From positions 1 through 46,280 of IMG/VR virus record IMGVR_UViG_3300012012_001384: a DNA stretch of 46,280 nucleotides. One strand, 5' to 3'. A program made the translations under genes and the position numbers. Source of the DNA: a virus. This document shows, one piece after another, positions 1 to 44,289 of the stretch. Under the pieces are notes generated by a model. That model was not told where the DNA came from, did no database searches, and saw only the letters and a list, made by a program, of their open reading frames with translations. Numbering within the stretch: the first letter of the stretch is position 1; each line of letters begins with the position of its first letter.

Positions 1-376
1 CTTTATATCCGAATGGTATATTGATCTTGTTAAAAGCACTAGCTTTACAAGCAAATGATATTCCGTAAACGTAATCTTCTCCAGGGTTAGGCAGCCAAGC
101 TGCTACCCATAGGTTCTCTACGTGGTAGATCACAGCCCTCGTCTCAGTATTATCCTTCTTGAATATGTGGTATCTTTCTTCCACTGACTCAGCGTTGATG
201 TGAGTAACTACCTTTGATAGAACTTCTCTCTTGATGATGTGAGCAGGGATGATGTCATCAGGCAACCCAAGTGTGTTGCGTGATACCTTGGGTTTACTAG
301 GTGGGATAAGCTTCTTGAGTTGCGGGTCGTACTTGACGAGGTGTTGCTGAAGGTTTGATGGGAGTTGGAATTCCAT
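1..376 (-). CDS. hypothetical protein, C-terminus beyond window edge
   Basis: An ATG at 376 opens a frame that stays open for 125 codons to the first base of the window, so the gene is cut by the edge and its stop is not seen. The product starts MEFQLPSNLQQHL and contains a run of aromatic and charged residues (VIYHVENLWVAAWLP near residue 80). It shows no signal peptide or membrane segment and I recognise no family. A 30-base repeat that also precedes the gene starting at 2567 lies 25-54 bases upstream. It is the most distal visible gene of the leftward small-gene operon. Confidence 0.8.
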   Translation of the reverse strand, partial: MEFQLPSNLQQHLVKYDPQLKKLIPPSKPKVSRNTLGLPDDIIPAHIIKREVLSKVVTHINAESVEERYHIFKKDNTETRAVIYHVENLWVAAWLPNPGEDYVYGISFACKASAFNKINIPFGYK

Positions 377-400
377 GAGTTGAGTTGATTAGGAGTTAGA

Positions 401-430
401 TGTGAGCAGTTTAACGTCATACTCAGGACG
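401..430 (-). repeat. 30-bp spacer repeat, copy 1
   Basis: This 30-base sequence is identical to 2590-2619. Both copies begin 6-7 bases after a stop codon and end 23-25 bases before the next leftward ATG. On the leftward transcript the 5' part can fold as CGTC-(8 nt)-GACG. It may be a promoter, a processing site or a translation leader; the sequence does not say which. Confidence 0.8.
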
Positions 431-436
431 GTAAGT

Positions 437-664
437 TTAATTGTAGATACCGTATTGTCTCTCTTCCTCTAGCTCATCGTAGTGCTCTGACATATAGTCA
501 GTTGTATTCTTAATAAACGTAGAATACTCGGATTTCAAGTACGTATGCCTTGATGTAAAGACTGGTACATGTTTACTAAAGCCTGTAGCTAGATAGACTC
601 TACCCCTGGGGCCACGTATTGTGATATACCAAGGTTTGAATTCGATACTAAATCCTTTAATCAT
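437..664 (-). CDS. small hypothetical protein (75 aa)
   Basis: I chose the ATG at 664 (MIKGFSIEFKPWYITI) because it overlaps the stop of the upstream gene by a few bases (ATGATTAA), the usual coupled arrangement here. The longer frame to 736 would run far into that gene. The product is rich in aromatic residues, with a basic patch (RGPRGR) and an acidic C-terminus (ELEEER). I recognise no family and no membrane segment. It is an early-type small phage protein of unknown role. Confidence 0.75.
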   Translation of the reverse strand: MIKGFSIEFKPWYITIRGPRGRVYLATGFSKHVPVFTSRHTYLKSEYSTFIKNTTDYMSEHYDELEEERQYGIYN

Positions 665-995
665 TGGGTAGTTCCTCAAGAGCAGAGCGGATGATGTTTT
701 CGTGGGCACCGTCGAGACGGTCAGAGCAGTCGTCAAGTACCGCCAGTGCTTGCTTTTTTAAGCTCGGTGGTTTGGGGCGGCGAGCGATGCGAAGTTCTAT
801 CGCAAGACCTTCACGAAGATGGTCCTCAAAGTAACTGCAACACGTCTTAAGCTCTTGGTCGGCACCCCATTGAGAGGCAAATTTGGCAACTTGAGGGAGT
901 ATTGCCTCATTGTTATTTGCCTCGTGCATCCACTCGCGCACCAGCTCAGGCGGTGGGGTGATTGGGTGCTGCGTGTAGTCTTGTTGGTTAGTCAT
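657..995 (-). CDS. hypothetical protein with N-terminal 'TPPPELVREW' motif
   Basis: The 112-residue product begins MTNQQDYTQHPITPPPEL. The short motif TPPPELVREW resembles the start of many small uncharacterised proteins in cyanophages and other marine phages; I make that link from memory, not from a search. The middle is helical and contains Cys-Cys near residue 52, and the C-terminal third (LDDCSDRLDGAHENIIRSAL) is also helical. It overlaps the next leftward gene by eight bases, so the two are probably translated together. Function is unknown. Confidence 0.8.
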   Translation of the reverse strand: MTNQQDYTQHPITPPPELVREWMHEANNNEAILPQVAKFASQWGADQELKTCCSYFEDHLREGLAIELRIARRPKPPSLKKQALAVLDDCSDRLDGAHENIIRSALEELPND

Positions 996-1066
996 GATTA
1001 AAAAAGATAAGAAAAGAGGTTAGTAGATTTTCCTTTGGTGTTTGATTGTACCAGGGAGATAGATAG

Positions 1067-1339
1067 TTAGATGTCAGTGGAATCAACGTCGATCCAATCA
1101 AGAGAATTGCCACGATTTAATTCGTGGATATATTCATCTAGATCTGATGGATCACTAGGTGGTTTGTCTTCTACATAGGTGGAGGCAGAACATAAGCCAG
1201 GCCTATGCTCTGCTGGTTCTTCCCATGTGGCAGGACTAACTTGAATACGATCTTCTATCCATGCTTCCGCATAGACTTGGTATTCGTTGACGCCTGTGGG
1301 ATAGACATCAACATGTCTTATGGCCCAGATAGATGGCAT
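1067..1339 (-). CDS. small hypothetical protein (90 aa)
   Basis: The product starts MPSIWAIRHVDVYPTG and is acidic (EDKPPSDPSDLDEYIHEL). Its start codon overlaps the upstream stop as TAATG, which indicates translational coupling with the 1339-1542 gene. I recognise no motif. The 71-base spacer that follows is A-rich on the plus strand and I see no clear hairpin in it. Confidence 0.75.
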   Translation of the reverse strand: MPSIWAIRHVDVYPTGVNEYQVYAEAWIEDRIQVSPATWEEPAEHRPGLCSASTYVEDKPPSDPSDLDEYIHELNRGNSLDWIDVDSTDI

Positions 1340-1542
1340 TAAAGTACCTCCATAGGTTGACGAATGGGTGCATTGAACATAGACGTAGGTCCATACTTAA
1401 GCACAAGATCTGGAAAAGAATCTAGAATCTTTTGCCTGTTGAGTGGATCAGCGTAGCGTAGTGCAGTAGCAAGACTTTGTACAAACTTACCGCCATGCTG
1501 TTGCATTAGATCGGTAAGCTGGTGGAATTCAGAAGGTGTCAT
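1339..1542 (-). CDS. small hypothetical protein (67 aa)
   Basis: The 67-residue product (MTPSEFHQLTDLMQQHGG) is mostly helical, with no membrane segment or recognised domain. It shares a TAATG junction with the gene downstream. The spacer before it (1543-1617) carries the structured element at 1576-1612, so its translation could be affected by that fold. Confidence 0.75.
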   Translation of the reverse strand: MTPSEFHQLTDLMQQHGGKFVQSLATALRYADPLNRQKILDSFPDLVLKYGPTSMFNAPIRQPMEVL

Positions 1543-1575
1543 ACGGATTGAGGTGAGATGAAGTGGTTGTTTATT

Positions 1576-1612
1576 TGGGACTTACACACCGAGTTGGCGT
1601 CGGTAATGCCCA
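1576..1612 (-). promoter_or_regulatory. structured spacer element, GTAAGTCC family, copy 1
   Basis: Read leftward, an outer stem TGGG:CCCA encloses an inner hairpin ACCGA-(7 nt)-TCGGT, followed by the conserved strand GTGTAAGT before the closing CCCA. The same plan recurs at 2956-2989, 3804-3833 and, on the plus strand, 29667-29695, with different but still paired stem bases. It begins six bases after the stop codon at 1618 and has no T-run, so it is not a simple terminator. Confidence 0.65.
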
Positions 1613-1617
1613 GATCT

Positions 1618-1815
1618 TTACATTAATTTAATGTTTGGAATGCTTAGTCCTGTGCCAGGGATACTGAAGGATCCTTTGACACCATTGGGATTGGCATTGA
1701 GAGTTAGTTGAAGCGGACCAAGTTTGATTGACTTGGTAAATGATTTAACTCCATGTTCAGTTATGTTTACACCATGGATGGTGCGATCAAAGCTGATGAG
1801 TGAACGCTTAGTCAT
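1618..1815 (-). CDS. small basic hypothetical protein (65 aa)
   Basis: The product (MTKRSLISFDRTIHGV) ends with alternating glycine, serine and isoleucine (GTGLSIPNIKLM) and has a beta-rich look. Its length and PGTGLS-type ending resemble small DUF4236-like proteins, whose usual core is a G-x-S/T-x-x-x-PGTGLSY pattern. I regard that as possible, not shown. It overlaps the upstream gene by ATGA. Confidence 0.7.
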   Translation of the reverse strand: MTKRSLISFDRTIHGVNITEHGVKSFTKSIKLGPLQLTLNANPNGVKGSFSIPGTGLSIPNIKLM

Positions 1816-2024
1816 TTCAAACCTTCGGGTAGGAGCATGTCGATGTCTGTTTGATCTGAGAAGTTTGTCATAACAAATTTCTTACCATCTGGTGTAACAA
1901 AGCCACCAATGAAGCCAGCACCTACACGGTCAGCTGCTTCTTTCATCTTTGCTACAAAGGCCATAGCTTGTAGTTGATCTGTGGCTATTGAGTTGGGAAT
2001 GCTGGGGAGATTGGATGAAGTCAT
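1812..2024 (-). CDS. small hypothetical protein (70 aa)
   Basis: I chose the ATG at 2024 (MTSSNLPSIPNSIATD) over the longer frame from 2093, because the extra residues look like untranslated leader. The product has a helical middle (LQAMAFVAKMKEAADRV) and then a compact GFVTPDGKKFVMTNF segment that resembles a beta hairpin. It overlaps the next gene by ATGA. Function is unknown. Confidence 0.7.
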   Translation of the reverse strand: MTSSNLPSIPNSIATDQLQAMAFVAKMKEAADRVGAGFIGGFVTPDGKKFVMTNFSDQTDIDMLLPEGLK

Positions 2025-2130
2025 GTTGATAGGTTGGAGATTGGATTGAGGTAGTGTACTTGGTATGTAAAGGATGGATAGAGATGTTAACAAAGGTTAT
2101 TCATTAACATTACTAATAGAAGATTAGGTT

Positions 2131-2164
2131 CCCCCCTGGTACCCCAACGGGGGGTCGAGGGGGG
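2131..2164 (-). other. strong GC-rich hairpin in the 2025-2204 spacer
   Basis: Six Cs (2131-2136) pair with six Gs (2159-2164), and inside them ACCCC (2141-2145) pairs with GGGGT (2151-2155). No T-run follows on either strand. This 180-base spacer also contains a TTGACA-like stretch on the leftward strand near 2175-2182 that could be a -35 box, but I see no good -10. The fold may be an attenuator, an RNA-stability element or a transcription block. Confidence 0.6.
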
Positions 2165-2204
2165 ATAGATGTCAGGACATTGTCAAGACACATGGTGTGT
2201 GCCT

Positions 2205-2567
2205 TTATCTTATGTATAGATAACCTCCTGCCCAGTCGGCACGCTCTAGACAGTTTGCATAGGATGCATCGTCTAGTAAGTTGTACCTTACGTGTTTAGC
2301 CGGAGACTTCCAGCCTGCTGGTTTGTATACAGCACCTGTTTGTTTACTGACAAAGGCATGGACTGATCTACTGGTAACACAACCCATGGAACTTGTTACT
2401 TCCATGATCTTGTAATACTTATTACCTTTGTTAATCTCAAAGGTCATGTCACCGTAGCGACCAGGATATGCTTTCTCAAAGCTACGGATTAGCTTGGAGA
2501 TAAGACCGTCGATACGATCTTCTATTGTTCTTGTAGTCTCTTTGAGACTTGTTGTGGATGCTGTGAG
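2205..2567 (-). CDS. hypothetical protein (120 aa)
   Basis: I chose the ATG at 2567 (MLTASTTSLKETTRTIEDR); the frame is open to 2666, but that part runs through the 30-bp repeat found upstream of another gene. The product begins with a helical segment (DGLISKLIRSFEKAYPG). It continues with a beta-rich part (YKIMEVTSS, SVHAFVSKQTGAVYKPAGW) whose ending ..KSPAKHVRYNLLDD resembles small phage proteins that carry a GxVYKPAxWxxPAKxxRYxL pattern. I recognise that pattern only from memory and no function follows from it. Confidence 0.75.
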   Translation of the reverse strand, partial: LTASTTSLKETTRTIEDRIDGLISKLIRSFEKAYPGRYGDMTFEINKGNKYYKIMEVTSSMGCVTSRSVHAFVSKQTGAVYKPAGWKSPAKHVRYNLLDDASYANCLERADWAGGYLYIR

Positions 2568-2589
2568 CATGTGTTGAATTGCAATGAAG

Positions 2590-2619
2590 TGTGAGCAGTT
2601 TAACGTCATACTCAGGACG
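2590..2619 (-). repeat. 30-bp spacer repeat, copy 2
   Basis: This is identical over 30 bases to 401-430. It starts seven bases after the stop of the 2626-2925 gene and ends 23 bases before the ATG at 2567. In this copy the hairpin can extend to ACGTC-(8 nt)-GACGT. Conservation without change, unlike the neighbouring hairpin families, suggests that its primary sequence matters. Confidence 0.8.
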
Positions 2620-2625
2620 TGTAAT

Positions 2626-2925
2626 TCAGCTATGCATTTCTTGATGTTGTTGCCAAGCACAAGCATGCGTTTCTGCCATGGTTACTGGAGGCTCACCCCC
2701 TGTATTGTTATACAGGTATTGAGGTGTTGGATCGTAGTTAAGATCATGTTCGATCTCATTCTCTAGTTGAGGAATGATCTCCTCCTCCAGGAGGGCAAGC
2801 ATTGAGAGTGTGAGGTCTTCACATCCTTGTGGACGCTTGCTTTCCCTAGCTACGATAGCCTTAAGGTCTTTGACAATACCTGCGAGGGCAGTGTATTCAT
2901 TGATGCGTCTTGTAGTGGTAGTCAT
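2626..2925 (-). CDS. hypothetical protein (99 aa)
   Basis: The product starts MTTTTRRINEYTALAG and is largely helical in its first two thirds, with a leucine- and glutamate-rich segment (SMLALLEEEIIPQLENEI) that could form a coiled coil. The C-terminus is polar and rich in His, Gln and Cys (ETHACAWQQHQEMHS). I see no membrane segment or known motif. The spacer before it holds the element at 2956-2989. Confidence 0.75.
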   Translation of the reverse strand: MTTTTRRINEYTALAGIVKDLKAIVARESKRPQGCEDLTLSMLALLEEEIIPQLENEIEHDLNYDPTPQYLYNNTGGEPPVTMAETHACAWQQHQEMHS

Positions 2926-2955
2926 GTTAGGTAGAGGTTAAGGTTTGGTTAGATA

Positions 2956-2989
2956 CCTGGGACTTACCCCATGGTGATGGGTGTCCAGG
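2956..2989 (-). promoter_or_regulatory. structured spacer element, GTAAGTCC family, copy 2
   Basis: Read leftward, CCTGG pairs with CCAGG around an inner hairpin CCCAT-(4 nt)-ATGGG, followed by GGTAAGTCC. The stem bases differ from the other copies while the pairing and the GTAAGTCC strand are kept. It sits three bases after the stop codon at 2993 and 31 bases before the ATG at 2925. Confidence 0.65.
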
Positions 2990-2992
2990 CAA

Positions 2993-3349
2993 TTAGATAA
3001 CGTTAAGGATACGTAGCCAGGAATCGGGATGGTCAGCTTCCACCTGATCGAATACAGGTGTGTAGCATTCATCACCTAATGTCCATTCTTCTATGTCCTC
3101 TAGGCTGGGGATGTCGTACCAACCGATGAGATCTTCCTTCTCTTGCGAGGTGTAGTTGTTGCCTGCTGGAATCCAGTAGCAACGTAAGACTCCTTGTTTG
3201 TTACGGAAGACGTTGCCGGTGCAGGGGATAGCTCCCTTAGGTGCGTCTTGGAAGTCCGGTTCGACTTCGTATTGCTCGGCTCCTTCTTCTGGTGTAACAG
3301 GTGTGTACCCGAAGGAGGCAGCGATCTCTTTAGTGATGGGATGAAGCAT
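2993..3349 (-). CDS. hypothetical acidic protein (118 aa)
   Basis: The product (MLHPITKEIAASFGYTPVTP) is acidic and aromatic, with EQYEVEPDFQDAPKG near the N-terminus, a beta-like middle (VFRNKQGVLRCYWIPAG) and an acidic C-terminal half (PSLEDIEEWTLGDE). I recognise no domain. An overlapping frame (3100-3444) on the same strand is judged a shadow, because its composition is serine/threonine/arginine-rich and it has no spacer logic. Confidence 0.75.
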   Translation of the reverse strand: MLHPITKEIAASFGYTPVTPEEGAEQYEVEPDFQDAPKGAIPCTGNVFRNKQGVLRCYWIPAGNNYTSQEKEDLIGWYDIPSLEDIEEWTLGDECYTPVFDQVEADHPDSWLRILNVI

Positions 3350-3393
3350 GATAGTAGTTCTGTAATAAGGATGGAAGTGAGTGTGATGATGAT

Positions 3394-3429
3394 GAGGATA
3401 AGGTCATCCTCTGTGAGTACTGATGTACT
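3394..3429 (-). other. tandem hairpins in spacer
   Basis: Two adjacent hairpins fill the spacer between the stop at 3428 and the ATG at 3349. On the plus strand they are GAGGAT-(6 nt)-ATCCTC at 3394-3411 and AGTAC-(4 nt)-GTACT at 3416-3429. The second overlaps the stop codon of the upstream gene. Neither has a T-run. They follow the general two-hairpin pattern of spacers in this operon but are not related in sequence to the named families. Confidence 0.55.
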
Positions 3430-3676
3430 AGGAGTGTGTTCCAATGGGACACTCCATGGTAGGTGCGGACATCTCCTCCCTCATAATCTTCTCTTGCTCA
3501 TCAGCAATGTCAGAGAGGAAGTCGATTTGATCTGCGGTATACTCTGCTGCATACTCTGATTCCTTGGCAGGAAACCTAAAGGTATAAGTGATGCAATGAT
3601 CGCCTACCGACAGTAGTTCATAGTCTGTTGCAGGGCATGTGTTTAGCCATGCATGGAAAGCTTCTTGAATAGTCAT
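3428..3676 (-). CDS. hypothetical acidic protein (82 aa)
   Basis: I chose the ATG at 3676 (MTIQEAFHAWLNTCPATDYE). The frame is open to 3763, but the extra codons would read through a promoter-like leader. The N-terminal part resembles a short helix followed by strands (HCITYTFRFPAKE), and the C-terminal half is acidic and helical (ADQIDFLSDIADEQEKIMREE). I recognise no family. This gene follows the largest structured spacer of the operon. Confidence 0.75.
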   Translation of the reverse strand: MTIQEAFHAWLNTCPATDYELLSVGDHCITYTFRFPAKESEYAAEYTADQIDFLSDIADEQEKIMREEMSAPTMECPIGTHS

Positions 3677-3760
3677 GATGTAGCTAGGGGTGAAGGGTAA
3701 GGTAGACAGTGTCGGTACATTGTCAGGACAAGTACGGACATGGAAAGGACAAGGTTTAGA

Positions 3761-3833
3761 CACCTACGGGACATAAGTAAAACTTATATATAGGTAGGTG
3801 ACTCTTGGACTTACACCACGAGTGGATGCCAAG
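3761..3833 (-). promoter_or_regulatory. structured spacer element, GTAAGTCC family, copy 3, plus second stem-loop
   Basis: Read leftward, the first stem-loop (3833-3804) has an outer CTTGG:CCAAG stem, an inner CCA:TGG hairpin and the GTGTAAGT strand. The second (3800-3761) has an outer CACCTAC:GTAGGTG stem, an internal loop and an inner ATAAGT-TTT-ACTTAT hairpin. The plus-strand copy at 29667-29735 has the same two-part plan, including a three-base TTT loop. It begins two bases after the stop at 3836. Confidence 0.65.
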
Positions 3834-3835
3834 CT

Positions 3836-4036
3836 TCAAGGTCCTGTCGTATGTGCAGATGTAGTAGGTCCAGCTGTTGGAGCTGTGACATTTACTCCCA
3901 CAACTGCTGCGCCAGTGGCGGCAGCGATGAGGAGTGCGAGGAGAACACAGAGTATGTTCCCCCTTCTCTCATGTGATCGGCGGTACGAATCTAATGTTAC
4001 GTACCTACCGTTCCTCATCTTGTAACTGTTCTTCAT
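3836..4036 (-). CDS. small single-pass membrane protein (66 aa)
   Basis: I chose the ATG at 4036 (MKNSYKMRNGRYVTL) because the longer frame from 4108 reads through a strong hairpin at 4057-4074. The product has a basic N-terminus (RRSHERRGN), one hydrophobic segment at about residues 28-50 (ILCVLLALLIAAATGAAVVG), and a proline/threonine-rich tail. The positive-inside rule suggests a cytoplasmic N-terminus. It is probably an inner-membrane protein of early infection; function is unknown. Confidence 0.7.
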   Translation of the reverse strand: MKNSYKMRNGRYVTLDSYRRSHERRGNILCVLLALLIAAATGAAVVGVNVTAPTAGPTTSAHTTGP

Positions 4037-4056
4037 TGTGTAATAGCAATGGTGTA

Positions 4057-4074
4057 GCAGGGTGTGAACCCTGC
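4057..4074 (-). other. strong 7-bp spacer hairpin
   Basis: GCAGGGT (4057-4063) pairs with ACCCTGC (4068-4074) around a four-base loop, in the spacer between the stop at 4112 and the ATG at 4036. A weaker AGCCT:AGGCT pairing lies just upstream on the transcript. There is no T-run. If only five pairs form, the loop is seven bases, like the second hairpins at 4764-5418. Confidence 0.55.
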
Positions 4075-4111
4075 AGGAAAGCCTGGTGTTACTTAGGCTT
4101 ACTTGCAAAGA

Positions 4112-4315
4112 TCACTTGAGATATCGTTTGTCTACGCAATACCATGCGTCCCCTTGGAACAGATGGATGTAGACAAGTTGGCGATTAGGTGTACGCCAAC
4201 AGTTCTCTAGGGTATGTGCATTGAGCACCTTCTGGCCAGCTACTGAAAGCAGCATGCCAAGGCCGGTGCCCATCACAACGGCAAGTACGGGAGTTAGCAA
4301 TGAGTCAGATTTCAT
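4112..4315 (-). CDS. small membrane-anchored protein, two-Cys type (67 aa)
   Basis: The N-terminus (MKSDSLLTPVLAVVMGTGLG) is a membrane anchor or signal-like segment at residues 7-27. A short domain follows with Cys39-Trp-Arg-Thr and a C-terminal WYC near residue 58. The next gene has the same plan (anchor, CRT, then WC near the end), so the two are probably paralogues. Two cysteines outside the membrane could form a disulfide. Function is unknown. Confidence 0.7.
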   Translation of the reverse strand: MKSDSLLTPVLAVVMGTGLGMLLSVAGQKVLNAHTLENCWRTPNRQLVYIHLFQGDAWYCVDKRYLK

Positions 4316-4339
4316 GAGGTTAAGGTTGAATGAAGGAAG

Positions 4340-4522
4340 TTACTTAGTTGCGTAGCTGTTAGCTGCACACCAGTCCATGTGGACTTTATGCGCAGCCACA
4401 GGCCACTCATGTGTACGGCACTGATGTGCTGTAGCTTTATCTAAGTAGTGTGTCGAGACTTGTGCTGTGATGCACATCATGATAATAACGCCGACATAAA
4501 CTGTGGCTACATTCTTGAACAT
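4340..4522 (-). CDS. small membrane-anchored protein, two-Cys type (60 aa)
   Basis: I chose the ATG at 4522 (MFKNVATVYVGVIIMM). The longer frame from 4603 would overlap the upstream gene and read through two hairpins. A hydrophobic anchor spans about residues 4-22, followed by a His- and Cys-containing domain (HQCRTHEWPV, then MDWCAAN). Its plan matches that of the 4112-4315 product, suggesting tandem duplication. Function is unknown. Confidence 0.65.
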   Translation of the reverse strand: MFKNVATVYVGVIIMMCITAQVSTHYLDKATAHQCRTHEWPVAAHKVHMDWCAANSYATK

Positions 4523-4543
4523 GACTAGGGTTAGGTAATGGAA

Positions 4544-4582
4544 TACAGGATGTTGAGTCCTGTAGAGGAGGCCGAAGCCTCC
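4544..4582 (-). other. tandem hairpins in spacer, one with UUCG tetraloop
   Basis: On the leftward transcript GGAGGC-TTCG-GCCTCC (4582-4567) forms a perfect six-pair stem capped by the very stable UUCG loop. It is followed by TACAGG-(9 nt)-CCTGTA (4564-4544). The pair lies between the stop at 4593 and the ATG at 4522. No T-run follows, so the role is more likely RNA processing, stability or translation control than termination. Confidence 0.65.
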
Positions 4583-4592
4583 AGTACAGAAG

Positions 4593-4763
4593 TCAGGCTG
4601 CACATTGTGCTTGACGCATCTCTACTAACAGCTCAACCAGTATTTGGTTGTAACTCTTGCTAGAGTCTTCAGCATGATAGCTAGCAATTACTTGCGCATC
4701 ATCTAGTTCTTCATTGGTAAATGTACCCATGAACTTAAACAGTTGCTCGTAAGTGATTGTCAT
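4593..4763 (-). CDS. small acidic hypothetical protein (56 aa)
   Basis: This short frame starts with an ATG at 4763 (MTITYEQLFKFMGTFTNEEL) and ends with TGA at 4593-4595. It fills what would otherwise be an empty 240-base stretch. It has the same spacer element upstream as its neighbours, which supports it as a real gene. The product is acidic and helical (ILVELLVEMRQAQ at the end) with no recognised motif. Confidence 0.7.
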   Translation of the reverse strand: MTITYEQLFKFMGTFTNEELDDAQVIASYHAEDSSKSYNQILVELLVEMRQAQCAA

Positions 4764-4855
4764 TGAGTTAGTGCTGTGCGGTGCCGATCTCCGCTGGAGG
4801 CAATGACTGAGACCAGGAGTTGCACCTGGTCACCTGCTTTAACAGATCAGTTTAA
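4764..4855 (-). promoter_or_regulatory. three-way-junction spacer element, copy A
   Basis: Read leftward, ACTGA pairs with TCAGT around two hairpins: ATCTG-(6 nt)-CAGGT and GACCAGG-(7 nt)-CCTGGTC. The conserved segment TTGCCTCCAGCGGAGAT then GGCACCGCAC leads to the ATG at 4763. Copies B and C keep the folds with different stem bases, and D keeps the 3' segment. It looks like a cloverleaf without a D-arm, but no tRNA can be completed. Confidence 0.6.
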
Positions 4856-5050
4856 CTAACCTATATAATTATCATCTTCATCATCAAGCAAAGTAATATT
4901 AATTTGACGCATCGGCCCAATAGCCTCATGCGTCCAACCCCATCTAATAAACTCTTTATACGATGCTTTTAGGTGTAGCTCTAGAAGTTTCTTAGAGTAA
5001 GCCCAATAGCCATGGCCGCACTGATAATACCAAACGGTTGTTGTTGTCAT
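4856..5050 (-). CDS. small hypothetical protein (64 aa)
   Basis: The product (MTTTTVWYYQCGHGYWAYSK) has an aromatic N-terminus with a CGHGYW stretch, a helical middle (LLELHLKASYKEFIRWGW) and an acidic end (LLDDEDDNYIG). I recognise no family. Spacer elements of the same family lie on both sides of it. Confidence 0.7.
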   Translation of the reverse strand: MTTTTVWYYQCGHGYWAYSKKLLELHLKASYKEFIRWGWTHEAIGPMRQINITLLDDEDDNYIG

Positions 5051-5136
5051 TGAGTTGATGTTGTGCAGGTGCCCATCTCCTGCGGCCTAGGCAATAACTG
5101 CCGGTGGGTTTGCACCACCGGACCCGCTTATACGGA
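5051..5136 (-). promoter_or_regulatory. three-way-junction spacer element, copy B
   Basis: The layout is the same as copy A. AGCTG pairs with CAGTT (one G-U), enclosing ATCCG-(6 nt)-CGGGT and CCGGTGG-(7 nt)-CCACCGG. ATTGCCTAGGCC and a GCAGG-(agatgggca)-CCTGC hairpin follow. The stem bases differ from copy A at most paired positions, which is covariation. AGGAG lies inside the last hairpin, about 26 bases before the ATG at 5050. Confidence 0.65.
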
Positions 5137-5331
5137 TCAGCTGTTAGTCACACGTGACCTTGAAGCAGGAATGTAATCTCCTGTGATACGTGCATCAAGT
5201 TGTTGTCGTCTAGCCTTAAGCTGACGGAGTTCATACTCCGCATTGTGCTGAGCTAAGCCAGCGTCGAACTCCATCCGTGCAACGGCTACACCATTGCGGA
5301 TAGCTGCTACTAAGCCTGAGCGAATGCCCAT
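5137..5331 (-). CDS. small basic hypothetical protein (64 aa)
   Basis: The product begins MGIRSGLVAAIRNGVAVAR with an amphipathic, possibly membrane-binding helix. It continues with a charged helix (AEYELRQLKARRQQLDARI) that could form a coiled coil. I recognise no family. It has a structured spacer element before and after it. Confidence 0.7.
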   Translation of the reverse strand: MGIRSGLVAAIRNGVAVARMEFDAGLAQHNAEYELRQLKARRQQLDARITGDYIPASRSRVTNS

Positions 5332-5418
5332 GATGTTGGTGCGGTGCAGGCGCCCATCTCCTGCGGACTAGGCAATACTGAGTGGGGGGGTTCGACCCCC
5401 CGGCATCACGCCTGGTAC
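5332..5418 (-). promoter_or_regulatory. three-way-junction spacer element, copy C
   Basis: A small GGC-(5 nt)-GCC hairpin is followed by a GGGGGG-TCGAA-CCCCCC hairpin. Then come CAGTATTGCCTAGTCC and the same GCAGGAGATGGGC hairpin as copy B, with a compensating change (GCGCC for GCACC). The outer stem is less clear here than in copies A and B. It leads to the ATG at 5331. Confidence 0.6.
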
Positions 5419-5655
5419 TCAGAGAGCAGTATGAAACTCCAGAAGACTATCAAGTTTGTGTACTGATCGCCATCCTTTTGATCCCTCCATCTCGTCGATG
5501 AAAGTGATATAGCGAGCTCTAGTAGATCCTGGTGCCCAGGCAACTACTGTCGCATAATCAATCACGTCACTTTGGTCGTAGCAAACACGGACTTCCCAGC
5601 CCATGCTCTTAGCTTTATCTACAGCTTGTTTGGCTAGCTGTTGGTTCTTGTTCAC
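5419..5655 (-). CDS. small hypothetical protein (78 aa)
   Basis: This first gene of the leftward cluster starts with GTG at 5655 (MNKNQQLAKQAVDKAK), supported by an AGGAG nine bases upstream. The product has an N-terminal helix and then alternating strands (GWEVRVCYD, DYATVVAWAP, ARYITFIDE). It looks like a compact alpha/beta fold of unknown function. The conserved 3' segment of the spacer element lies just upstream. Confidence 0.75.
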   Translation of the reverse strand: MNKNQQLAKQAVDKAKSMGWEVRVCYDQSDVIDYATVVAWAPGSTRARYITFIDEMEGSKGWRSVHKLDSLLEFHTAL

Positions 5656-5800
5656 CGGATTACTCCTGGTTGTGCGGTGCCTATCTCCACTGGAGGCTCA
5701 ACCCCACCCTTCGACATAACAGTCCGAATACCGAGAACCCAGTGGTGGCGGGCATTTACCGGATTCGCGCCCTACACGAGGGATGGTAGTTGATAGAAAC
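5656..5800 (-). promoter_or_regulatory. leader of the leftward operon with spacer element, copy D
   Basis: The 3' segment GCCTCCAGTGGAGAT then GGCACCGCACAAC (5701-5670) closely matches copy A. Upstream on the transcript, a GAC-(6 nt)-GTC hairpin near 5720 and a GGGC-(15 nt)-GCCC hairpin near 5755-5780 replace the paired hairpins of A-C. A genuine ribosome-binding AGGAG before the GTG at 5655 is separate from the element. Confidence 0.5.
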
Positions 5801-6095
5801 GGTAAGCTTATCGTGTCAATAACACGTAAGCGAAGTAAGTTTTAAGCGAACGAAGTGAGCGTTGCTTCTTCTCTTGTGAGCGAAGCGAACTTCCTTCGTT
5901 ACTTAACTCGTACTTCCATTGACTAAAGTCCTTGTAATACCCGTACCCTTTTTTTTTCTTTACAGAAACCTACTCGGTGGGGGGGTGGGAGAATGGTCAG
6001 GTAAATCTAATACCTATTTGAGGGTATAAGAGCGCCTTATATATAGTAAAAGTGTTATTTTGTCGTCCGAAACGTGTGTTTGCCCAAGAATTTAG
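5801..6095. other. non-coding control region
   Basis: No convincing ORF is seen. The region holds a CGTGT-(5 nt)-ACACG hairpin (5812-5826) and four GCGAA words within 5829-5890 mixed with GAAGTGAGCG-type repeats. It also has a pyrimidine run (5945-5960), a G-rich run (5970-5985) and an AT-rich stretch (6000-6055). That last stretch contains an ATACC-GGGTAT inverted repeat and TATATATA. Because the leftward operon starts just to its left, its promoter is expected here. An origin or packaging role is possible but not shown. Confidence 0.5.
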
Positions 6096-6126
6096 ACAAA
6101 AAAGCCGGGGTTTTATTCCCGGCTTT
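6096..6126 (-). terminator. intrinsic terminator of the 6151-6399 gene
   Basis: Read leftward, AAAGCCGGG-(loop)-CCCGGCTTT is followed by a run of Ts (6103-6097). That is a textbook rho-independent terminator, 24 bases after the stop at 6151. It separates this gene from the small-gene operon further left. Confidence 0.85.
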
Positions 6127-6150
6127 GCTTTAAATTACAGAATTTTATTA

Positions 6151-6399
6151 TTATCCCTTCTTTGCCTTATATGCGAGAGTTGCATTCATTGCTTTACGGA
6201 ATGCATCTTCATCTGGTAGCTCATAAGCCAGTTCTTTTTTGGCGGAAGTAACAAAATCACGTACTTCGAGGGAGTCTTCACCCCTTTGCACTTTCTCCAA
6301 AGCTTTATTTTTTATAGTTTCGAGTGCTTCTACTCGTTTTAGACGGGTTTCGTCGTCCATCCTGGTGCATATAGATTGTTCTTTAACTATAGCGCCCAT
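6151..6399 (-). CDS. small charged helical protein (82 aa)
   Basis: The product (MGAIVKEQSICTRMDDETRL) is charged and almost wholly helical (KRVEALETIKNKALEKVQRG), with no recognised domain. An internal ATG (MDDETRL) is an alternative start. The gene is divergent from the rightward structural cluster and has its own terminator, so it is an independent transcription unit. Its place opposite the late genes would suit a regulator, but nothing in the sequence shows that. Confidence 0.7.
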   Translation of the reverse strand: MGAIVKEQSICTRMDDETRLKRVEALETIKNKALEKVQRGEDSLEVRDFVTSAKKELAYELPDEDAFRKAMNATLAYKAKKG

Positions 6400-6414
6400 A
6401 TTTTAAGTTTTAAA

Positions 6415-6427
6415 CAATATAATATTG
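6415..6427. promoter_or_regulatory. palindromic divergent -10 region
   Basis: CAATAT-A-ATATTG is a perfect palindrome between the divergent ATGs at 6399 and 6466. It contains TATAAT on the plus strand and a similar box on the minus strand, so it may serve both directions or bind a dimeric repressor. No clear -35 is seen. Confidence 0.45.
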
Positions 6428-6465
6428 GTATACAACAAATAAAACGATAAACTTTTAGGTGTTCC

Positions 6466-9444
6466 ATGGATTCTGCACTTATGTTCGCTGCATACCAAGC
6501 GGAACAAGATAAGTTACGTCAACAACCAGAGCAAGAAAACAATTTAGTTGATGCGTTGGGTAAAGCAGCACTTGCGGCAGGTGTTGCAACGGCAGGTATC
6601 TTAGGCGGACGTCGTTTCTTTGCTGGTAGGGGAGCAGCACCTACTCCTGTACGTAATACAAGTGCTACTACAGACCTTAGTAATATCAATGTTAATAACC
6701 TTCGTCGTGCAAGTGGACGTCCTCCTGTAAATGTTACAGAAACTGTTGTACCTTCTCGTCCTGCACCACGTCCTGTACCACAAACAACAGTTGAACGGTT
6801 AGGTGATGTAAATGAAATTACACGTCAAGCACGTAGTGAACGTCCACAAGGTATAAAGTTTGTTGATCAGCTAGGTGAAGAGCCACCTATTAATACATCA
6901 CAGATTATCATACCAAAAACAACAACCAAAGAAACACCTACTGGACAAGGTTTTGGTTTGGATTATTTAAATAGTCTTTTAGGAAGAAAACCTGCTGTAG
7001 AAGAGGTTACGCGTCAAGTTCGTAACGAACGTTCACAAGGTATACCATTTCTTGATCTATCTGATGAAGTACGTACGTCAGTAGATCCATGGTCAGGTAA
7101 AGAAACAATCTTGACACCTTTTGGTTCTCCTACCGTACCTCCAGTTAGAACAACAGAAACTACAACAAGAGGAACACGGTTACTTTCTCCAGCAGCTCCT
7201 GATGCTGCTGATCGTTTACTTAATGACCCTGACTTGTTAAAACGTGTTGAAGCAGAAGCGTTAGCAAAAGAAAATCTACTTTCTAGTAATAGATCGGAAC
7301 AAGCAAAACAAGCAGCAAGAAGGCGGCAAGTACTTGCGGCAACAGGAGGTGATATTATGTCTACTCTTCGTTCAGAAGCTAATACTGCCGAAGCAGCAGC
7401 ACAAAGTGATTTTGGACCACAAACATTCTTAAAACAAAAAGGTTACATTGACGCTGAGTCAATGACTGAACAACACGTTGCAGATCGTCCACAACATATT
7501 GAACAAGTAGAAGATGCGCTTTCCTCTGGTACACACCAAATGGAAGGCCGGACAAAACATCGCCTACAACAGAATGAAGATCTAGATCTCGGTCAGATTG
7601 AGATCATGGAAGAAATGGCAGATGCACAATATCGTAATTTTGTGAATCAAGCAGATCCTAGTCAAATGATGGGACTTGAACCTGATATTCACGTTGAACA
7701 AGTTGCGTCTCGTTTACCGGATGGCTTACCTGTTGACCAAGCGGAAGGGCTTAAACGTGATTTAAGTAATACACCAGCAGCACGTTTTCTTGAACAAGAA
7801 CGTAATGTAATTTCTCGTATATTACAAAATAAAGATTTACCGGTATCGCCTACTCGTATTGAAAAAGAACTTGCTAATCGTTTAAGTGGTTCAACAGCAT
7901 CTTCATACGGACCTAAATACACAGCAAGAAAACAAGCACTAGAGTTATATGCTCAAACAGGAGATCCACAATTCTTAGAAACAATTGAAAAATTTGGTTT
8001 AAAGCCTGTTAGTTTTGATCCTGACTCAGAGGACATTACTTCTTTAGCAAGTTCAAAAAAGATTGTTAATATGCCAGGAATAGGAGAAGTTTCTACAGCC
8101 AGTCTTCGTAGACCAGTTATTACAGAAAGCACAGCTAGGCAGGCAGATGAGTTTATCAAGAGAAGAACAGAAGAGAAATTAAATAACAACCCTTGGCTGG
8201 AAGGTATTGCTTCTGAAGTAGAGCAAGGAAAACAAGAAATTTATTCTGAACGTAGACAACTAGCAGAACAAACAGGTAAAGCACTTAACCTCCAACTTGA
8301 ACAAGCAAAAGCAAGAGGGCAAGGTAATACTGTACGTCAATTAGAAACTCAACTTGGAGCGTTACGAGATATATACCGCAACCCAGAACTTGGACAACAT
8401 CGCGAATTTGGGGAAGGAGGTATTCGCCAGCTAGACGCACGTTTACGTGGAGCACAAGAAACCAATCTACAACAAATCCAAGAACTTCAAAAGAAATATC
8501 CAACAACTCTTGCAAATCCTTCTGGAGAAGTAAATCGTTTGTTTGGTATATTAGATGATGAAGGTGAATTTATTCCTGAGTCTATGGAATTTCGCTCTGA
8601 GCGGCCCATGATTGACACAGAAAATAAAGGTGGTGGTGGACGTAATATTGCAGAATATACAGCAGGATTACGTCCTGAATTAACCCGACAAAGCACAGTT
8701 CCTTTACCTTATTACGTACCATCTACTGAAGGAAAAATAACTATAAAAGGCATGGAAGGTAAGTCATATGCCAGAAGAGGTAATCCACCGGTTAGTCAAA
8801 AATCAATTCGTGATTATAATATTGAAACAGGCGGCGATCCTTTAGTATTTGAAGATGATCGTTCTGGGTCAGGTAGTGTAATTGATCGGTATGGTATTCG
8901 CCCTGCTAGCGAACAAAGTGCCGATTTAACTCTTCGTCCTTCTCAACCGGTTTACAGCCAAAATGAAGTTATAGAAGAAGCCTATCGAATGGCTCAAAAA
9001 AACACAGATGACGACGCACCAACACGTGTACCTACTTACGAAGAAGCAATGGAATCTCTTGGCAGACAACCAGCTACTGAAGCAGGTCGTAGATCTATTC
9101 TTGCTAGTGAAGCCGCTAGACTTGGTAAAACAACATATCCAAGTTCAATGACTGGTCCATATCCTTCCAGTTTGTTAACATCTAAACCAAAGTCTTTACC
9201 TAAATTAAGTAATACACAATCTTTACCTCTTAAACAAAATACACAACCTTCATTTTACCGGAATGAAGACACACAACTTTCATTTCCTGCTTACCTTGTT
9301 CCCGCAACCCAAGTTGCTGCTAGAGTCCGTATGACACCAGCTGACCAGGCAGCGGAACAGCTTAACGCTTACATGAGTAAACTTCAAAGAGGACGTACTT
9401 CTCCTTTGACTTCTGATGTACGTATTCAACCTTCCTTATTCTAG
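6466..9444 (+). CDS. large virion-like protein with N-terminal membrane segment (992 aa)
   Basis: This first gene of the rightward cluster encodes a long, polar, glutamine- and glutamate-rich protein with one hydrophobic segment near the N-terminus (about residues 28-47, AALAAGVATAGILGG). Two copies of a TRQxRxERxQGIxFxD unit lie at about residues 119-134 and 182-197. Long helical, coiled-coil-like stretches fill residues 560-700, and the end is low-complexity. No enzyme motif is visible. Size, position and composition fit an internal virion or DNA-ejection protein, but this is inference. The start ATG is 30 bases after a possible -10. Confidence 0.8.
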   Translation: MDSALMFAAYQAEQDKLRQQPEQENNLVDALGKAALAAGVATAGILGGRRFFAGRGAAPTPVRNTSATTDLSNINVNNLRRASGRPPVNVTETVVPSRPAPRPVPQTTVERLGDVNEITRQARSERPQGIKFVDQLGEEPPINTSQIIIPKTTTKETPTGQGFGLDYLNSLLGRKPAVEEVTRQVRNERSQGIPFLDLSDEVRTSVDPWSGKETILTPFGSPTVPPVRTTETTTRGTRLLSPAAPDAADRLLNDPDLLKRVEAEALAKENLLSSNRSEQAKQAARRRQVLAATGGDIMSTLRSEANTAEAAAQSDFGPQTFLKQKGYIDAESMTEQHVADRPQHIEQVEDALSSGTHQMEGRTKHRLQQNEDLDLGQIEIMEEMADAQYRNFVNQADPSQMMGLEPDIHVEQVASRLPDGLPVDQAEGLKRDLSNTPAARFLEQERNVISRILQNKDLPVSPTRIEKELANRLSGSTASSYGPKYTARKQALELYAQTGDPQFLETIEKFGLKPVSFDPDSEDITSLASSKKIVNMPGIGEVSTASLRRPVITESTARQADEFIKRRTEEKLNNNPWLEGIASEVEQGKQEIYSERRQLAEQTGKALNLQLEQAKARGQGNTVRQLETQLGALRDIYRNPELGQHREFGEGGIRQLDARLRGAQETNLQQIQELQKKYPTTLANPSGEVNRLFGILDDEGEFIPESMEFRSERPMIDTENKGGGGRNIAEYTAGLRPELTRQSTVPLPYYVPSTEGKITIKGMEGKSYARRGNPPVSQKSIRDYNIETGGDPLVFEDDRSGSGSVIDRYGIRPASEQSADLTLRPSQPVYSQNEVIEEAYRMAQKNTDDDAPTRVPTYEEAMESLGRQPATEAGRRSILASEAARLGKTTYPSSMTGPYPSSLLTSKPKSLPKLSNTQSLPLKQNTQPSFYRNEDTQLSFPAYLVPATQVAARVRMTPADQAAEQLNAYMSKLQRGRTSPLTSDVRIQPSLF

Positions 9445-9446
9445 TC

Positions 9447-9671
9447 ATGGCAGAAAAGAAAAAAGATAAGAAATGGATTCAGAAAACTGAGATGAAGAAA
9501 GGTGTCTTTACGGCTAAAGCTAAACGAAAAGGTATTACCACTGCACAGCTACAAGAGAATGTCCTTTCGGCTCCAGAGAAGTATGATGCTGAAACCGTGA
9601 AACAAGCCAGGTTACGTCAAACCTTGGTAGGATTAAAAAAGAAAAAAGACGAGAAAAAAACTGAGACCTAA
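9447..9671 (+). CDS. small basic protein, WIQ-KxG-AKA type (74 aa)
   Basis: The lysine-rich product contains KWIQKTEMKKGVFTAKAKRK, which matches a small basic phage protein pattern (WIQxxxxKxGxxxAKA) often found among structural genes; I know the pattern but not a proven function. The segment EKYDAETVKQARLRQTL is helical, and the protein ends in a poly-lysine run. It starts two bases after the previous stop and shares TAATG with the next gene, so the three are one translational unit. DNA binding inside the capsid is a reasonable guess. Confidence 0.8.
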   Translation: MAEKKKDKKWIQKTEMKKGVFTAKAKRKGITTAQLQENVLSAPEKYDAETVKQARLRQTLVGLKKKKDEKKTET

Positions 9672-10327
9672 TGGCACGTGACGCGAGACTTGATTTAGGG
9701 CGCTATATACAGAATCCTTTTAATCGTCGAGGGGAAATTTCCAAACGTTTAGATTTTGATGACTTGTTTCAATCCAAGTCAAACAGCGGAGAGTATCCTT
9801 GGAACCCATCAAAATTTAATGAACGTGACTTATTGAAACGTGCAATGACACGTAAAGTTACATTGAACCCAGATCTTAATTTTGTAGGTAATACTCCTTT
9901 CTTTGATGACAACGCAGAAGTAACACCACAGTATGAACTGTTTGAAGGACTTGGTCGTTTTAATAGACCAGAAGATTATGACTTTGATGAAGGTAGGGCA
10001 CGTACCACACAACGTCCACAAGAACAACCTGATTTTAATACAGATTGGATTGAAGCATATAAATTAAGTCCTACCTTAAAACCAGGAAAAGCAGCACGTA
10101 ATCCAATGCCACGTTTACGTAACCCTGATCCAAATGGTTATCTCCTGGCAGGAGCAGAGAGACGAGCTGAGAATGAAGTAGAAGATAAACCTTCAATTTC
10201 ACAACTGTTAGATCGTCAAGGTTTAGTTAAAGCAGAACAGAAACAAGCAGAAGAAAAACAAGGAGAAAAAACTGCAAATGAAGCAGATGTAGAATCTAAC
10301 ATTTCCCCTGGTAAAACACAAGAGTAA
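9671..10327 (+). CDS. hypothetical virion-region protein (218 aa)
   Basis: The product (MARDARLDLGRYIQNPFNRR) is hydrophilic, with an arginine- and proline-rich middle and a lysine/glutamate-rich C-terminus (KAEQKQAEEKQGEKTANEAD). It looks mostly disordered, with short aromatic motifs (EYPWNPSKF). It has no membrane segment or known domain. Coupling (TAATG) to the basic protein before it suggests that they act together, perhaps as minor head proteins. Confidence 0.75.
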   Translation: MARDARLDLGRYIQNPFNRRGEISKRLDFDDLFQSKSNSGEYPWNPSKFNERDLLKRAMTRKVTLNPDLNFVGNTPFFDDNAEVTPQYELFEGLGRFNRPEDYDFDEGRARTTQRPQEQPDFNTDWIEAYKLSPTLKPGKAARNPMPRLRNPDPNGYLLAGAERRAENEVEDKPSISQLLDRQGLVKAEQKQAEEKQGEKTANEADVESNISPGKTQE

Positions 10328-10360
10328 CTAAAGATAAAATAGTATTAATGCATATGGAAA

Positions 10361-10918
10361 ATGTTTAAAATTGCGGGTCAACTAGCAGGTCTATTAAAAA
10401 ATTCTGCTCCCGTAAAAAGGTTGGTAGCAGACGGTGGAGGCGACATGTTACGTGCTTCTGTACCAGGGGGTTTACTTACAGGCATATATACTACACTAGC
10501 CACTGGTAATCCAATAGCCGGTCTTACGGTAGGCGCAGCAGATGTTGGGTTAGGTGTAGGTGCAGGTAAATTATTAAAAAAGTATGCACCTGATATTGCA
10601 GGTAAATATAATGCTTATATACCAGATGACGTATTAAAGAAATATGCGGGTGCATCAATACCTGCAACAAAAATTAACCGTGTATATGAACCTAGTTGGC
10701 AAGCTAACGCTGTAAATTTAGCAGGTAGTGTTGCAGCACCAATGCTAATTGAACCTTTATTTTATCCTCAGCAACAAACAAATACCAATCAGTCTGTGAC
10801 ACAACAACAACAACTTGGTCAACAAGAGATGTTAAATCAAATGTACCAAGCACAAACAGCAGACGGCACCTTGTATCAAACGCAAGGTCTTCCTTATCGT
10901 CCAACGGGGCAATACTAA
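10361..10918 (+). CDS. glycine-rich hydrophobic virion-like protein (185 aa)
   Basis: The N-terminal half has glycine-rich hydrophobic stretches (VPGGLLTGIYTTLATGNPIAG, then VGAADVGLGVGAGKLL), and a further hydrophobic patch lies near residue 125. The C-terminus is glutamine-rich (SVTQQQQLGQQEML) and ends in tyrosine-containing PYRPTGQY. Glycine-zipper helices of this kind occur in phage ejection proteins that enter the host membrane. The gene overlaps the next as TAATG. Confidence 0.75.
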   Translation: MFKIAGQLAGLLKNSAPVKRLVADGGGDMLRASVPGGLLTGIYTTLATGNPIAGLTVGAADVGLGVGAGKLLKKYAPDIAGKYNAYIPDDVLKKYAGASIPATKINRVYEPSWQANAVNLAGSVAAPMLIEPLFYPQQQTNTNQSVTQQQQLGQQEMLNQMYQAQTADGTLYQTQGLPYRPTGQY

Positions 10919-29666: not shown

Positions 29667-29735
29667 CTTGGCAACACCTCAGTGTGTAAGTCCAACCTAC
29701 TGGATACGAATCTTTGATTCATGGAAGCCAGTGTT
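29667..29735 (+). promoter_or_regulatory. structured element, GTAAGTCC family, copy 4 (plus strand), with second stem-loop
   Basis: The outer TTGG:CCAA stem (29668-29671, 29692-29695) encloses ACAC-CTCA-GTGT and the conserved GTAAGT strand. The second stem-loop (29699-29732) has ACTGG:CCAGT outside and GAATC-TTT-GATTC inside. This two-part plan, with a TTT loop, matches the leftward copy at 3761-3833 although most stem bases differ. It is the only copy in the late region, upstream of the tail-lysozyme gene. A TTAGACTAAA box just before it may be a promoter. Confidence 0.65.
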
Positions 29736-43678: not shown

Positions 43679-43719
43679 TTATCTACTGAGTGTATACTGT
43701 ATAGAGACGCCTGCTGTGC

Positions 43720-44283: not shown

Positions 44284-44289
44284 TTCTAA

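Follow-up and report, generated by a model that had tools for sequence, protein, structure and literature searches.

A 28-nt pseudoknot recurring between genes in phage genomes, and its possible role as an RNA boundary element

The window analyzed here is the whole of a 46,280-base virus record, which may itself be a fragment (IMG/VR record IMGVR_UViG_3300012012_001384), in which an earlier note had picked out an exact 30-bp repeat at positions 401–430 and 2590–2619, preceding two leftward genes. We verified the coordinates and the identity of the two copies (TGTGAGCAGTTTAACGTCATACTCAGGACG) and found that a 28-nt core within the repeat shows the base-pairing expected of an H-type RNA pseudoknot, a fold that, judging from paired changes among related sequences, it almost certainly adopts. 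This pseudoknot represents a family that is widespread and almost confined to viral contigs; its members occupy, on the transcribed strand, the gaps that separate translated or tRNA units, irrespective of the genes concerned. We consider the chances about even that it serves as a boundary element, folded between two such units and either insulating them from each other or blocking nucleases; the mechanism is not certain.

On the coding strand the core reads CGUC-C-UGAGUA-U-GACG-UUAAAC-UGCUCA, comprising a stem 1 of 4 bp, a loop 1 of one C, a stem 2 of 6 bp (7 in variants), a junction of one U and a loop 3 with the sequence UUAAAC. A 29-base core of the 30-mer has two matches in the window, even when up to three mismatches are allowed, and none in 100 dinucleotide shuffles of the window; the bases flanking the two copies differ. 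The exact 29-mer is present in six IMG/VR stretches, and a mismatch-tolerant reading of those six contigs yielded diverged copies whose differences from the window sequence are paired. Stem 1 (CGTC/GACG) appears there as TGTC/GACA, and stem 2 (TGAGTA/TGCTCA) as TAAGCA/TGCTTA, TGGGCA/TGCCCT or TGGACA/TGTCTA; it was this pairing of differences that pointed to an H-type pseudoknot. The earlier note had set the exactly kept repeat apart from ‘covarying families’, a contrast that does not hold, since the repeat belongs to a covarying family in which only the two window copies are identical.

The pairing was evaluated in two scans of IMG/VR, in each of which one helix was fixed and the other left wholly or partly free (at least 119 and at least 120 stretches, respectively). 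The scan patterns fix part of the sequence, so that only pattern-free positions serve as a test of pairing, and the remaining columns owe some of their invariance to the search itself. When stem 1 was left partly free (121 distinct contexts), pair 2 was Watson–Crick in 120 cases (shuffle mean 77.1, maximum 88) and pair 1 in 94 (mean 42.0, maximum 63). In the 168 contexts with stem 2 free, pairs 2, 3, 4 and 5 were Watson–Crick in 120, 163, 156 and 125 cases, against shuffle means of 85.2, 83.1, 94.4 and 112.9 and maxima of 106, 112, 110 and 123; pair 6 was set by the search pattern, and pair 1, whose 5' base was likewise fixed, showed no excess (115 versus 115 shuffled). Across 104 distinct sequences drawn from the pattern-only set, 94.4% of cells pair (83.8 in shuffles), 117 cells are changed on both sides (33.3 in shuffles) and the covariation score is 0.410, compared with 0.203 after shuffling and at most 0.099 when the partners are slid by one to three columns. 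Compensatory changes are present in both of the crossed helices, above the shuffled and slid controls.

Columns outside the 28 nt carry at most 0.32 bits of information, and loop 1 and UUAAAC are nearly invariant (the latter two in part through the search patterns). Nested folds of both window copies were unremarkable (z −0.5 to −1.7) with a folding tool that does not model pseudoknots. Loci fetched through neighboring genes, for which the element itself was not sought, contained a version with a 7-bp stem 2 (TAGGTCA/TGACCTA, in L365 and L370) as well as a bulged subfamily (GGACCTGGGATGTCC...).

The pattern with stem 1 free, which matched at least 119 stretches in IMG/VR, matched 6 in 257 Gb of prokaryotic contigs, and all six are titled as metagenome-assembled genomes. 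BLAST searches with one variant, sensitive to near-exact copies only, returned one weak match among 72,556 plasmid records and none among 20,395 Escherichia coli records. A covariance model of the family (R1) matched 34 of 36 records examined, the exceptions being SAP3 (W07) and ICBM1 (W11); most of these records were picked for having a copy and some were used to build R1, so that the result measures copy number and strand rather than frequency. Twenty-one records had two or more matches, 110 in all, and within each of these records every match fell on a single strand. Such records hold 2 to 10 matches (2 in the window, 6 in S-EIVl; S-SM2 has one), the ten in record G002 including two at its opposite ends that may be one copy. 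Conservation in relatives, whose absence the earlier note had named as part of what would refute its readings, was in this way found to be present.

The better-scoring phages include cyanobacterial ones (Synechococcus S-EIVl, S-H35, S-SM2 and S-RIM4, and Nostoc NMeng1) together with Moorella MTATph1, Arthrobacter Molivia, Streptococcus Javan271, the thermophilic D6E, Christensenellales NatCom_6392 and Vibrio D456. The hosts of the carrier isolates are cyanobacteria and Firmicutes and, less surely, Actinobacteria, which are represented by Molivia alone. Against the whole phage collection Molivia (2.1e-6) is borderline, as are S-SM2, S-H35 and Lactobacillus phiEF-1.1, all of them backed by placement. 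Membership of Staphylococcus SAP3 is undecided: it scores 16 bits, has a like fold by eye and lies in the same place before a scaffold gene, the downstream gene being annotated otherwise but just preceding the capsid gene. BLAST counted 87 candidate Staphylococcus records. It also listed E. coli phiEcoM-GJ1, Lentibacter ICBM1 and Erwinia Berlingot, which score just 11–12 bits and were rejected as members; crAss-like cr7_1 (E 0.0015) and Paracoccus ParKuw1 (E 0.003, both E values for the phage's own record), as well as Mycobacterium Labelle (3e-5), would not be significant against the whole phage collection. In three loci (L134 528–640, L216 2929–3010 and L171 around 690 on the minus strand) a second pseudoknot, tandem or decayed, lies near the first.

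The position of the element between genes is constrained on both sides. Among 190 instances with non-redundant flanks, 174 had enough flank to examine stop-codon spacing, and 133 stops of open reading frames (ORFs) of at least 60 aa fell between −28 and 40 nt from the element. Ninety-four of these lie 4–12 nt upstream, the commonest distance being exactly 5 nt (47 stops), and 3 are closer than 4 nt; the antisense control gave 19 stops over the same range, 8 of them in the 4–12 nt band. The gap from the element to the next ATG (n = 168, both neighbors called) has a 5th percentile of 19 nt, a median of 27 nt and a peak at 19–22 nt, and is shorter than 18 nt in 8 cases. No Shine–Dalgarno (SD)-like motif precedes 118 of the 168 downstream starts, and G makes up 7% of the 12 nt after the element versus 15% of the 12 nt before it. 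Simple gene calls around 184 elements, too noisy to tell a 5' from a 3' role, placed 119 between genes co-directional on both sides, 18 in divergent and 16 in convergent arrangements, with 30 overlapped by an ORF and 1 without a downstream call. The mRNA helicase of the ribosome acts near position +11, and an initiating 30S subunit takes up about 20 nt on the upstream side of the start codon. An RNA structure 5 nt past a stop codon in the A site would therefore just be left folded and, on that view, the element sits as close as possible to both ribosomes without being melted.

The genes on either side are of many kinds. Of 294 instances, 270 had a neighbor called downstream and 284 one called upstream, and these proteins formed 101 and 128 clusters, respectively; profile scans of 69 downstream and 82 upstream proteins matched primase, PhoH, scaffold, SSB, portal, ribonucleotide reductase and DNA polymerase, among others. 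The pseudoknot also adjoins tRNA genes. It lies 5 nt after a stop and 5 nt before tRNA-Arg in two near-identical loci (L085, L110), 5 nt after a stop and 4 nt before tRNA-Gly in a third (L010), and 44 nt upstream of tRNA-Trp in two loci that are alike (L054, L075); elsewhere it follows tRNA-Lys by 4 nt and precedes a coding sequence (L099). In Arthrobacter phage Molivia (L243, 1501–1530) it begins 6 nt after the SSB stop and ends 2 nt before tRNA-Gly, with a loop 3 longer by 3 nt, and NMeng1 has a tRNA, annotated as pseudo, 3 nt downstream of the element. In D6E, phiEF-1.1, Javan271 and, less certainly, SAP3, the element directly precedes the scaffold gene. Several Firmicutes phages have the pseudoknot between portal or minor-head genes and a scaffold gene (L031, L033 and L036 at about 2500, L237 at about 1500); in L031, L033 and L237 it comes shortly after a hairpin with a T run.

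We asked what occupies this slot in homologs of two genes, one downstream (D3) and one upstream (U0) of the element, fetched irrespective of its presence (the best 80 of 124 D3 homologs, 78 of them usable, and 53 U0 loci). A loose descriptor found the pseudoknot in 72 of 78 D3 and 51 of 53 U0 loci, with 1 and 2 matches, respectively, on the opposite strand. Stricter descriptors found it in 35 and then 48 of the 78 D3 loci, and in 38 and then 46 of the 53 U0 loci (the latter count sets aside two loci without a found start); sequences that these descriptors missed agreed with the pseudoknot when inspected by reading. Of the six D3 exceptions, two near-identical loci (L313, L317) bear in the slot an unrelated hairpin, which we refer to as family 2, and the other four have an empty slot (L252 and L253, which are alike, L315 and L319), with upstream genes that end −6, −6, +14 and −2 nt relative to the start. 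The two U0 exceptions are L362, with a family-2 hairpin, and L375, whose irregular pseudoknot was counted as absent. A stricter descriptor flagged one further locus (L250) as family 2, which by eye has the pseudoknot. The rule used to call upstream ORFs is crude: it made no call in 10 of the 78 D3 homologs and gave three pseudoknot-bearing loci (L249, L298, L300) ORF ends at +4, +29 and −30 that probably belong to false ORFs. The swaps and empty slots indicate that two unrelated structures can fill the slot, which was empty only in homologs without a gap between the genes.

The family-2 hairpin (CTKGGCA...GTAAG[TC]CCMAG, with a UAAGU internal loop) has 106 distinct strict matches in the collected loci versus 5 in a reversed control, usually 3–4 nt after a stop, and no Rfam match at its sites within positions 1–6500 of the window. 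In six loci (L257, L258, L259, L261, L262, L324) the stretch of about 60 nt preceding the D3 start holds a pseudoknot subfamily in which stem 1 is GGAC/GTCC and stem 2 seemingly contains a bulged G (GGACCTGGGATGTCCTTAAACTCATCCA).

The exchange with an unrelated fold, the indifference to gene identity and the occurrence next to tRNAs suggest a general structural task, such as that of a roadblock or insulator. In the version that we hold most likely, one ribosome terminates about 5 nt upstream of the compact element and another initiates about 20 nt downstream, and the element, remaining folded between them, would form a roadblock that isolates the two units of the polycistronic RNA. The unpaired, G-poor spacer might be cut by an RNase E-like activity, or the 5' end of an adjacent tRNA processed, and the folded element would then stop exoribonucleases from running through at the cut ends. 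The element might also keep the next leader from pairing with upstream sequence, and an independent start of the next translation would fit nearly as well as nuclease blocking; both may hold. To our knowledge cyanobacteria lack Rho, so that blocking of Rho is unlikely as a general purpose. A broader proposal, which we hold only tentatively, is that the pseudoknot is a phage-wide RNA punctuation mark, present in viruses that infect several bacterial phyla and working through machinery common to all bacteria or through its own chemistry, and that cyanophages possess interchangeable, unrelated structures for the same slot.

If the latter proposal is correct, such a mark would render the units of a polycistronic phage RNA independent of one another, by way of the ribosome, nucleases or its own chemistry. 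A boundary role, if the pseudoknot has one, would help to explain how many small neighboring genes are tuned in phages that mostly do without SD sequences. The element would then also offer synthetic operons an insulating part of 28 letters, and metagenome studies a marker by which to recognize phage DNA. Its exchange for an unrelated hairpin opens to direct test what is required of an intercistronic structure.

Several observations weigh against the account of a pseudoknotted boundary element. Concerning the fold, one of five measures on the 104 sequences, the number of pairs with any two-sided change, does not exceed its control (6 versus 5.7 shuffled). Concerning the slot, the loose descriptor also matched reversed-letter controls (14 of 78 and 11 of 53) and is not proof by itself, the cases of swapping and abutment are few and include near-identical pairs (L313/L317, L252/L253), and an empty slot between abutting genes may reflect mere lack of room. 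Concerning function, terminator-like sites are not clearly enriched around 190 elements (3 upstream and 5 downstream, versus 2 and 3 on the antisense strand), and in Javan271, phiEF-1.1 and D6E the element by eye follows a hairpin and T run, a possible terminator, and so cannot always cap the upstream transcript. Finally, 15 instances before D3 genes combine a nearly fixed start distance (19–35 nt in 13 of them) with upstream gaps of 5 to 107 nt and upstream genes from 10 clusters (one instance has no upstream call), which fits a translation-leader role equally well.

According to that alternative, the pseudoknot is a translation-initiation element of the downstream gene that lies just beyond the mRNA exit side of the initiating 30S subunit and recruits it, or keeps an SD-less, G-poor leader open. 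Along with the D3 spacing, the rarity of starts within 18 nt of the element, the peak at 19–22 nt, the predominance of starts without an SD-like motif and the drop in G content past the pseudoknot would all be expected of it. The copies placed directly before tRNA genes are not easily explained by a function at a start codon, D3 homologs lack the pseudoknot where they abut the upstream gene, and an unrelated hairpin substitutes for it; we regard an initiation element as unlikely, though it is the best of the rival explanations.

The pseudoknot might instead be bound by a phage protein that represses translation or processes the RNA. Gene 32 leaders of T2, T4 and RB69 contain an H-type pseudoknot with two coaxial stems, followed by an unstructured stretch before the start, that acts as the operator for gp32, and in T4 UUAA(A) repeats lie 3' of the pseudoknot (PMC3014915). 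The general layout of an H-type pseudoknot upstream of an unstructured leader is the same in the window family, and the nearly invariant loop 1 and UUAAAC are in line with such a site. This makes the gene 32 pseudoknot the nearest functional precedent. In contrast to the gene 32 operator, however, the window family precedes unrelated genes and tRNAs, often shortly after a stop, with up to 10 matches in one record. An SSB profile was found in 1 of 69 downstream cluster representatives (among the 25 of 63 profile families shown), and in Molivia the pseudoknot follows the SSB gene rather than preceding it. Of three readings offered by the earlier note, an RNA-binding site comes nearest, in that the element behaves as RNA, keeping one orientation and showing compensatory changes in both helices; a dedicated binding protein is argued against by the unrelated hairpin that can replace the pseudoknot in the same slot, and we consider a protein site of this kind improbable.

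A site of cutting, where the pseudoknot would act as a very small self-cleaving ribozyme or be cut by an endonuclease of the host so as to separate the units, would agree with the location at mRNA/mRNA, mRNA/tRNA and tRNA/mRNA junctions and with the nearly invariant loop nucleotides. There is hardly any conserved sequence beyond the 28 nt, the loops are those of an ordinary compact H-type fold, and the natural ribozymes that we know of are all larger than 28 nt, which counts against this idea; we give it roughly one chance in ten.

Still less probable is a signal in the nascent RNA to RNA polymerase, such as put-like antitermination or pausing. It would suit a phage RNA element found in long co-directional gene runs and also before untranslated tRNA genes, but records contain several copies, some just a few hundred bases apart, downstream terminator-like sites are not clearly enriched, and the copies before three scaffold genes follow rather than precede the hairpin and T run. 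The remaining two readings of the earlier note, an internal early promoter and a recombination site, would accord with the exact identity of the window copies and are scarcely credible given the compensatory changes in two crossed helices, the single orientation per record, the constrained stop and start distances and the lack of overlap between either copy and any of 14 promoter-like sites (sigma-70 −35/−10) listed for positions 1–12000.

Among other described elements, STAXI is a pseudoknot-based bacterial motif near DNA-handling genes, including that for SSB (PMC2864571). As its entry describes it, STAXI (RF01728) has 153 model positions, with a pseudoknot repeated two to three times and often UUCG loops, and is listed for Enterobacteriales, all of which differ from the family described here. 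None of seven records matched it at E ≤ 10, and identity with STAXI was rejected.

REP/BIME elements and the RNase III sites of phage T7 are portable intercistronic hairpins, often located after stops, that partition or stabilize polycistronic RNA. The pseudoknot resembles REP/BIME elements in being intercistronic, located after stops and gene-neutral; it differs from both kinds of hairpin in being a pseudoknot and in occurring in phages of hosts from several phyla. Luteovirus-type frameshift and readthrough pseudoknots are of similar size, with a very short loop 1 and an A-rich loop 3, and lie a few nucleotides past the decoded codon. Unlike these, the window family follows stop codons at the ends of genes.

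A search of window positions 1–6500 against Rfam 15 at E ≤ 5 gave five matches, none at the copies or over the gathering score, and a search of 10 loci at E ≤ 3 gave another five, of which only two neighboring tRNAs exceeded the gathering score. Judging from titles and the beginnings of abstracts among the matches listed, we found no description of this pseudoknot family in the open literature. It is filed as a new RNA family of a known kind, the phage mRNA pseudoknot, for whose portable, gene-neutral, intercistronic use we found no precedent. The element is tiny and covaries strongly, and it is common in viral contigs; that Rfam 15 nonetheless yields no match may come from its being short and pseudoknotted.

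The two copies in the window (Table 1) both lie within a cluster of small leftward genes (about 1–5700). The first 5 kb resembles seven phage records, all seven from cyanophages, the closest being Synechococcus phage S-EIVl from an arctic lake (70% identity over 15% of the query). The earlier note had placed both copies 6–7 bases after a stop, as is the case, and 23–25 bases before a start, which is true of copy 1 only: from the end of the 30-mer to the ATG there are 24 nt in copy 1 and 19 nt in copy 2 (26 and 21 nt from the core). Relatives of the gene downstream of copy 1, in L003, L005 and others, share its arrangement with the pseudoknot, and L003 has the same 21-nt core-to-ATG spacing as copy 2. 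A leader peptide beginning at an ATG in the core (MTLNCSH) was considered and rejected, the frame entering the gene in copy 2 and not in copy 1.

Table 1. Positions of the pseudoknot copies, their adjacent gene boundaries and the family-2 hairpins in the window
Feature	Position	Strand	Basis or remark
Pseudoknot copy 1, 28-nt core	403..430	-	Sequence; model R1 49.7 bits; covariation in relatives
Copy 1 stem 1, coding-strand order	5' strand 430-427 (CGTC); 3' strand 418-415 (GACG)	-	
Copy 1 stem 2, coding-strand order	5' strand 425-420 (TGAGTA); 3' strand 408-403 (TGCTCA)	-	
Copy 1 unpaired parts	Loop 1 426 (C); junction 419 (T); loop 3 414-409 (TTAAAC)	-	
TAA stop of upstream leftward gene (ORF 437-736)	437..439	-	Copy 1 starts 6 nt later
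ATG of leftward gene downstream of copy 1 (MEFQLPSN...)	374..376	-	Gene runs off window start
Pseudoknot copy 2, 28-nt core	2592..2619	-	Sequence; model R1 49.7 bits; layout as copy 1
Copy 2 stems	Stem 1 2619-2616 + 2607-2604; stem 2 2614-2609 + 2597-2592	-	
Copy 2 unpaired parts	Loop 1 2615; junction 2608; loop 3 2603-2598	-	
TGA stop of upstream leftward gene (ORF 2626-2925)	2626..2628	-	Copy 2 starts 6 nt later
ATG of leftward gene downstream of copy 2 (MLTASTTSLK..., ends 2205)	2568..2570	-	
Family-2 hairpin	3804-3833	-	
Family-2 hairpin	~1580-1613	-	By eye
Family-2 hairpin	~2957-2990	-	By eye
Family-2 hairpin	~29667-29695	+	By eye

Two further sets of repeats were seen in the window. A third repeated intergenic structure precedes leftward genes at about 4775–4850, 5054–5135, 5335–5410 and 5668–5700; it consists of GCAGGAGATGGGC... 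with a strong adjacent hairpin (one copy reads GGGGGGGTTCGACCCCCC) and appears by eye to be pseudoknotted and faintly tRNA-like. Diverged repeats with 60–83% identity between copies occupy positions 41999–44769, in the last 5 kb; repeats of this sort occur in phage tail fiber genes.

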